22,627 nucleotides of DNA. Source: a virus. The notes under the pieces are model-generated. The model saw only the letters and a program-made list of their open reading frames with translations. It searched no databases and was not told the DNA's origin. Both the position numbers and the translations under genes were made by a program. Shown here in pieces: positions 22,022 to 22,219 of this stretch (position 1 is the stretch's first letter; each line of letters opens with the position of its first letter). The DNA is taken from the IMG/VR virus record IMGVR_UViG_3300025000_000437, positions 1-22,627 of that record. One strand, written 5' to 3'.

Positions 22022-22035
22022 ATTCTCTCCTCTAT

Positions 22036-22059
22036 AAAAAATACCCACGTTCTCGTGGG
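22036..22059 (-). terminator. Terminator/attenuator in front of the Ro60 ribosome site
   Basis: CCCACG-AGAA-CGTGGG is followed on the minus strand by TATTTTTTAT, and GAGGAG comes right after. GTTCTCG at 22076-22082 can pair with CGAGAAC at 22049-22055 instead, which would break the terminator; a third stem, TTTGTT/AACAAA (22066-22085), hides part of that strand. Confidence 0.66.
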
Positions 22060-22086
22060 CTTTAATTTGTTTCTCCGAGAACAAAC

Positions 22087-22201
22087 GTGTCGGGTGTAAA
22101 CTTTTAGCAGAAGTAACCTGACACTTCACTACGGATATTTAATTTGTTTTGTAGGGAACTGGCTTGTTCAGTATTTTTCATCCAAAGAAGTAACTGAACA
22201 A
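22087..22201 (-). ncRNA. Ro60 leader with two related hairpins
   Basis: Hairpin 1 has a perfect 9-bp stem TTGTTCAGT/ACTGAACAA (22193-22201 with 22164-22172). Hairpin 2 has GTGTC/GACAC with an inner GG/CC (22087-22091 with 22120-22124). Both carry the same 9 bases GTTACTTCT (22186-22194 and 22109-22117) on the 5' side of the loop. This looks like a duplicated protein- or ligand-binding element upstream of an attenuator. Confidence 0.55.
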
Positions 22202-22219
22202 TTCACCACTACACTATTT

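Follow-up and report, generated by a model that had tools for sequence, protein, structure and literature searches.

Tandem Y RNA-like modules between the promoter and the terminator of a phage Ro60 leader

The Ro60 gene and its leader

The window, by which we mean the whole stretch of DNA that was analyzed (22,627 bases from an IMG/VR virus record), encodes terminase and portal genes and, on the minus strand, a Ro60 protein (Table 1). The protein matches the TROVE family of Pfam (E 2e-17) and PHROG 850, and its AlphaFold model (mean pLDDT, 83.7) combines a TROVE ring with a vWA fold. The best match of the model is the Ro60 of Thermus phage phiLo (PDB 9l5y, the closest solved structure; about 24-28% protein identity), followed by Xenopus and human Ro60 and the Rsr of D. 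radiodurans, indicating that the gene encodes a Ro60 and is more than a vWA protein. A long N-terminal extension starting at a GTG at 22129 was ruled out because the relatives begin at the MKTN position. Shortly downstream of Ro60 lies a tRNA-Glu (TTC) gene (20422-20496), and tRNA genes adjoin Ro60 in several related loci. A 33-bp tandem repeat of about 20 copies (18389-19069) lies within an open frame on the minus strand (18342-19337) and specifies an 11-residue protein repeat.

Table 1. Features of Ro60 and its leader in the window
Feature	Position	Strand	Details
Sigma-70 promoter, TTGACA-16-TATAAT	22247-22220	-	12/12 consensus match
Expected transcription start	~22214-22213	-	First bases of module 1
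Candidate Y RNA module 1	22146..22215	-	R1 51.1 bits, E 1e-11 (window excluded from R1)
Module 1, P1 (basal helix)	22213-22209 with 22154-22150	-	Followed by bulged U 22208, then GG:CC and internal loop
Module 1, P2	22201-22193 with 22172-22164	-	UUACUUC motif, short loop
Candidate Y RNA module 2	22069..22138	-	R1 48.9 bits, E 3.6e-11; anatomy as module 1
GTTCTCG	22082-22076	-	Conserved GUU of the module plus 3' strand of module 2 P1
Intrinsic terminator hairpin, GCCCACGAGAACGTGGGT	22060-22043	-	7 bp, 5 GC
Six T after the hairpin	22041-22036	-	Expected RNA 3' end; predicted RNA ~177 nt
Ribosome-binding site of Ro60, AGAGGAGAG	22033-22025	-	Read from the sequence
Ro60 (TROVE + vWA), 459 aa	20642..22021, ATG 22021	-	Pfam, PHROG 850, structure model

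A preliminary description of this DNA had reported a strong terminator between the promoter and the ribosome-binding site of Ro60, and both the promoter and the terminator lie where it had placed them. That description had also named a promoter between the terminator and the gene as evidence against expression by read-through; no such promoter was detected in the intervening 20 nt or so. Since the terminator precedes the gene and no second promoter follows it, expression of Ro60 requires transcripts that read through.

The whole leader is more stable than its shuffled counterparts (z = -3.3; 0 of 200 shuffles were as good). Two hairpin modules and the terminator coexist in its minimum-energy fold (-47.3 kcal/mol), so that the terminator has nothing to displace, and the terminator pairs form with ensemble probabilities of 0.92-0.97. 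The sole short reading frame noticed in the leader, which starts at about 22180 in the loop of the first module, has by eye no ribosome site, and attenuation by ribosomes on a leader peptide was rejected.

Two copies of one covarying module

The leader contains direct repeats of 24 and 12 nt, both spaced 77 nt apart and both missed in the preliminary description, which indicates that it holds one module twice. The basal helix of the second copy (AUCCG/CGGAG) is followed by AG:CU in place of the GG:CC of the first, a compensatory change. Both copies are minimal (about 65 nt) with short loops.

A covariance model (R1) was derived from 25 modules of other loci, aligned over 66 columns with the window left out. 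In the consensus, a 5-pair basal helix leads through a bulged U and two GG:CC pairs to an internal loop, beyond which lies a second helix of 9 pairs. Changes on both sides occur in 14 of the 16 pairs, and the covariation score is 0.78, as opposed to 0.20 for shuffled alignments and at most 0.19 when the partners are slid. The alignment was assembled by pattern and by eye and hence leans towards the structure; the safeguards are the slid-partner control and blind detection. A blind scan with R1 recovered both copies in the window at the scores given in Table 1, the next best match scoring 11 bits. Among 153 further modules, which were themselves found with a pattern and the model, the basal helix is 82-100% paired and the bulged U is present in all but two (151/153).

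Except for tRNA, tmRNA, and RNase P genes, no Rfam family is matched by the leader or by 19 related loci, and the Y RNA models of Rfam (vertebrate Y RNA) gave no match. When phage records were searched with the leader as nucleotide query, only one match came up, short and insignificant.

Association of the module with Ro60 in other phages

The sequence upstream of the gene was inspected for 30 viral relatives of this Ro60, and in most cases it contains at least one copy of the module. It also precedes Ro60 in Xanthomonas, Caulobacter, and Brevundimonas phages and in a few bacterial records. A pattern consisting of the 5' half of the module, and thus of DNA alone with no protein information, was used to scan 2.9 million viral contigs. 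Of 80 matching viral stretches examined, 76 encode Ro60, 74 of them on the same strand, and in 69 of these 74 the match lies 76-848 nt upstream of the gene. In whole phage records (43-348 kb), matches mostly adjoin Ro60, those at 59870 in G380 and at 23196 in G379 being exceptions. Weaker matches adjoin the distant Ro60 genes of an Allomeiothermus silvanus plasmid, Thermus phage phiLo, Arthrobacter phage Atuin, and Streptomyces phage Quantum, and the module lies downstream of Ro60 in phiLo and three other loci (L012, L013, and L036).

Tandem arrangement is common: at least two modules were detected in 68 of 95 distinct arrays, with up to 8 detected modules per array. Diverged copies escape R1, as do those that by eye seem to precede the Ro60 gene of Rhizobium phage Y65, so these counts are minimum values. 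R1 itself detected nothing in Y65 (L038) or in crAss001 (L037), both of which encode Ro60; Y65 has an apparent diverged array by eye, and crAss001 has none near Ro60. In five loci (L006, L014, L029, L034, and L040), as in the window, the promoter is placed so that the transcript would open with the initial base of the first module.

Of 84 modules, 31 have a T tract directly after the basal helix, compared to 13 at upstream control positions and 9 further downstream, suggesting that termination after the module is a recurrent theme among the relatives. In L039, L041, L043, L004, and L009, the tract directly abuts the basal helix, as if the Y stem were itself the terminator. Hairpin terminators before Ro60 are present in about 6 of the 95 arrays (5 detected by scan, with L042 added by eye).

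tRNA-like inserts

Many relatives of the window modules contain a tRNA-like insert, as do the bacterial Y RNAs known as YrlA. Among the 22 modules of at least 100 nt, a T-arm motif occurs in 16 and T and D motifs occur together in 9. Where the relatives were read by eye, the order within the insert is T, acceptor-like, D, and is therefore permuted. One insert (L016, about 2080-2190) instead runs D-anticodon-T, the normal order, and matches positions 6-65 of the Rfam tRNA model (41 bits). Two annotated tRNA genes before Ro60 resemble the tRNA-like part of the Y module, namely a tRNA-Ser of Brevundimonas phage Gurke (L032, 2302-2376) and a tRNA-Gln of Caulobacter phage CcrColossus (L035, 1664-1731), the latter locus having a weak R1 match (14.3 bits). 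The T/acceptor/D domain is absent from both modules of the window.

A probable Y RNA gene upstream of Ro60

RNAs that are linked to Ro60 and have a stem formed by both ends are described as Y RNAs, with a tRNA-like domain (PMC8394870). In the modules, a basal stem is formed from the 5' and 3' ends and carries a conserved bulge and internal loop. The Y RNA assignment is by this published description and by the module-like matches beside distant Ro60 genes. The lack of a tRNA-like domain indicates that the RNAs of the window would be Y-type but not YrlA. Three points count against a Y RNA identity: the window modules fall short of the usual length of bacterial Y RNAs, they have no YrlA domain, and they match no Rfam family.

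From sequence, we consider it probable (about 0.85) that the leader is a minimal Y RNA gene of two modules that has a promoter and a terminator of its own, and that Ro60 is produced by read-through. Transcripts would run from the initial base of module 1, set by the strong promoter, to the intrinsic terminator, and would thus form a Y RNA of two modules and about 177 nt. Ro60 would bind the modules, with the second helix and its UUACUUC motif, beside the bulged U and the conserved internal loop, as the putative site. The Ro60 gene directly downstream would be expressed from those transcripts that pass the terminator. The promoter, the terminator, the identity and covariation of the modules, and their linkage to Ro60 come from the sequence itself; we infer the binding of Ro60, the ends of the RNA, and the fraction that reads through.

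Alternative accounts of the leader

The preliminary description had interpreted the leader as an attenuator, in which an upstream GTTCTCG pairs with CGAGAAC inside the terminator, a third stem competes with that pairing, and Ro60 is switched on by read-through, for example, when a ligand, a ribosome, or Ro60 binds. The complementarity is real (22082-22076 with 22055-22049, both on the minus strand), and the competing stem exists in the form of P1 of module 2. Read-through is needed, as no other promoter is available; the antiterminator that was to control it was not supported, since it is not conserved and its complementarity alone is not beyond chance. An attenuator of this kind, with module 2 (stabilized by Ro60 or a ligand) deciding between GUUCUCG:CGAGAAC and the terminator, is in our estimation unlikely. 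It draws some support from fold energies, computed with soft constraints: at full length the alternative fold is just 2.5 kcal/mol worse (null, 7.2 ± 2.7; P 0.05), it pairs both strands of the module 2 basal helix with the terminator, and it ranks first among the folds of transcripts that stop within the 3' arm of the terminator; read-through is, moreover, the only route to Ro60. However, for RNA that stops at the terminator stem, the alternative fold is 5.4 kcal/mol worse (P 0.2), and the pair probability of the antiterminator at full length is 0.03. A complement of 7 nt arises by chance in about 10% of structure-preserving redraws of the terminator (P about 0.10), and GTTCTCG is a conserved 3' strand of the Y module itself. 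The sequence GTTCTCGGAG is common to the window and L027, yet L027 lacks a terminator, whereas L042 has a terminator and no complement exceeding 5 nt. The rarity of hairpin terminators among related arrays (about 6/95) is likewise unfavorable. Because the complement is not beyond chance, GTTCTCG belongs to the module, and L027 and L042 do not fit, the antiterminator is not accepted as shown, although it is compatible with the fold energies: redraws, fold energies, and the 95 related arrays yielded no conserved antiterminator that excludes the terminator. Ro60 very probably binds the leader, and a classic on/off attenuator switch is probably not how the leader works.

Ro60 might instead act on its own leader with no antiterminator involved, lowering its own expression through termination or a blocked ribosome site. 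Such autogenous control is compatible with a Y RNA gene, as an addition to it, and we regard it as possible, though doubtful. In 19 of the 95 arrays, no more than 22 nt separate module and Ro60, and the spacers of L017, L026, L027, and L028 measure 5-8 nt; the enrichment of T tracts directly after the basal helix (31/84 versus 13/84 and 9/84) points the same way. This support is positional, however, and the window itself has no T tract after either module and a ribosome site about 36 nt or more past module 2. In L017, L026, L027, and L028, the ribosome site of Ro60 lies within, or immediately next to, the 3' strand of the final basal helix, suggestive of translational feedback. The broader proposal that tandem phage Y arrays are also cis-regulators, with Ro60 on the head of its own mRNA setting termination or translation and thereby matching Ro60 to Y RNA, is similarly tentative. 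Control of Ro60 by a tandem small-molecule riboswitch is highly improbable: the leader does present tandem, structured, covarying modules and a terminator, but the DNA pattern alone finds the module beside Ro60 (76/80), the module sits downstream of the gene in L012, L013, L036, and phiLo, and tRNA-like inserts are frequent in it.

Comparison with known systems

Attenuators and transcriptional riboswitches share with the window the succession of promoter, structured leader, terminator, and gene; unlike them, the window has no conserved antiterminator, and its module resembles a stand-alone RNA tied to Ro60. As far as bacterial Y RNAs (YrlA/DrY; Chen et al. 2014, Sim and Wolin 2018) are presented in PMC8394870 and PMC12282133, they too adjoin Ro60/Rsr, and their stem of both ends, a two-ended stem also seen in the window module, holds the Rsr site. 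In these accounts the likeness extends to the permuted tRNA-like domain, which is found in relatives of the window modules, whereas the window modules are minimal, have no such domain, and stand as two in one predicted transcript. The Salmonella rsr-yrlBA operon (PMC7790460) resembles the window in uniting a Ro60 gene and two Y RNAs. There, the Y RNAs follow rsr, and RtcR drives the operon; in the window, the modules precede Ro60, with a sigma-70-type promoter and a terminator. In phage phiLo, Ro60 is closely followed by a module-like match (L049, 3522-3589; 25.5 bits), which is weaker than those of the window.

Y RNAs in phages have already been reported (PMC12282133; PMC7765460), so the kind is known and an array of minimal copies is a variant of it. 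Judged against part of the literature, we regard the arrays of minimal Y modules as the new part.

Implications for phage Ro60

These results assign probable RNA partners, arranged as tandem modules, to phage Ro60 proteins. The same module, often repeated, precedes Ro60 in dozens of other phages, and it can be pared down to a strongly covarying core of 66 nt that is absent from Rfam. The minimal copies, having no tRNA-like domain, set the presumed Ro60-binding part apart from the effector part, and with this separation the roles of the two parts become testable.
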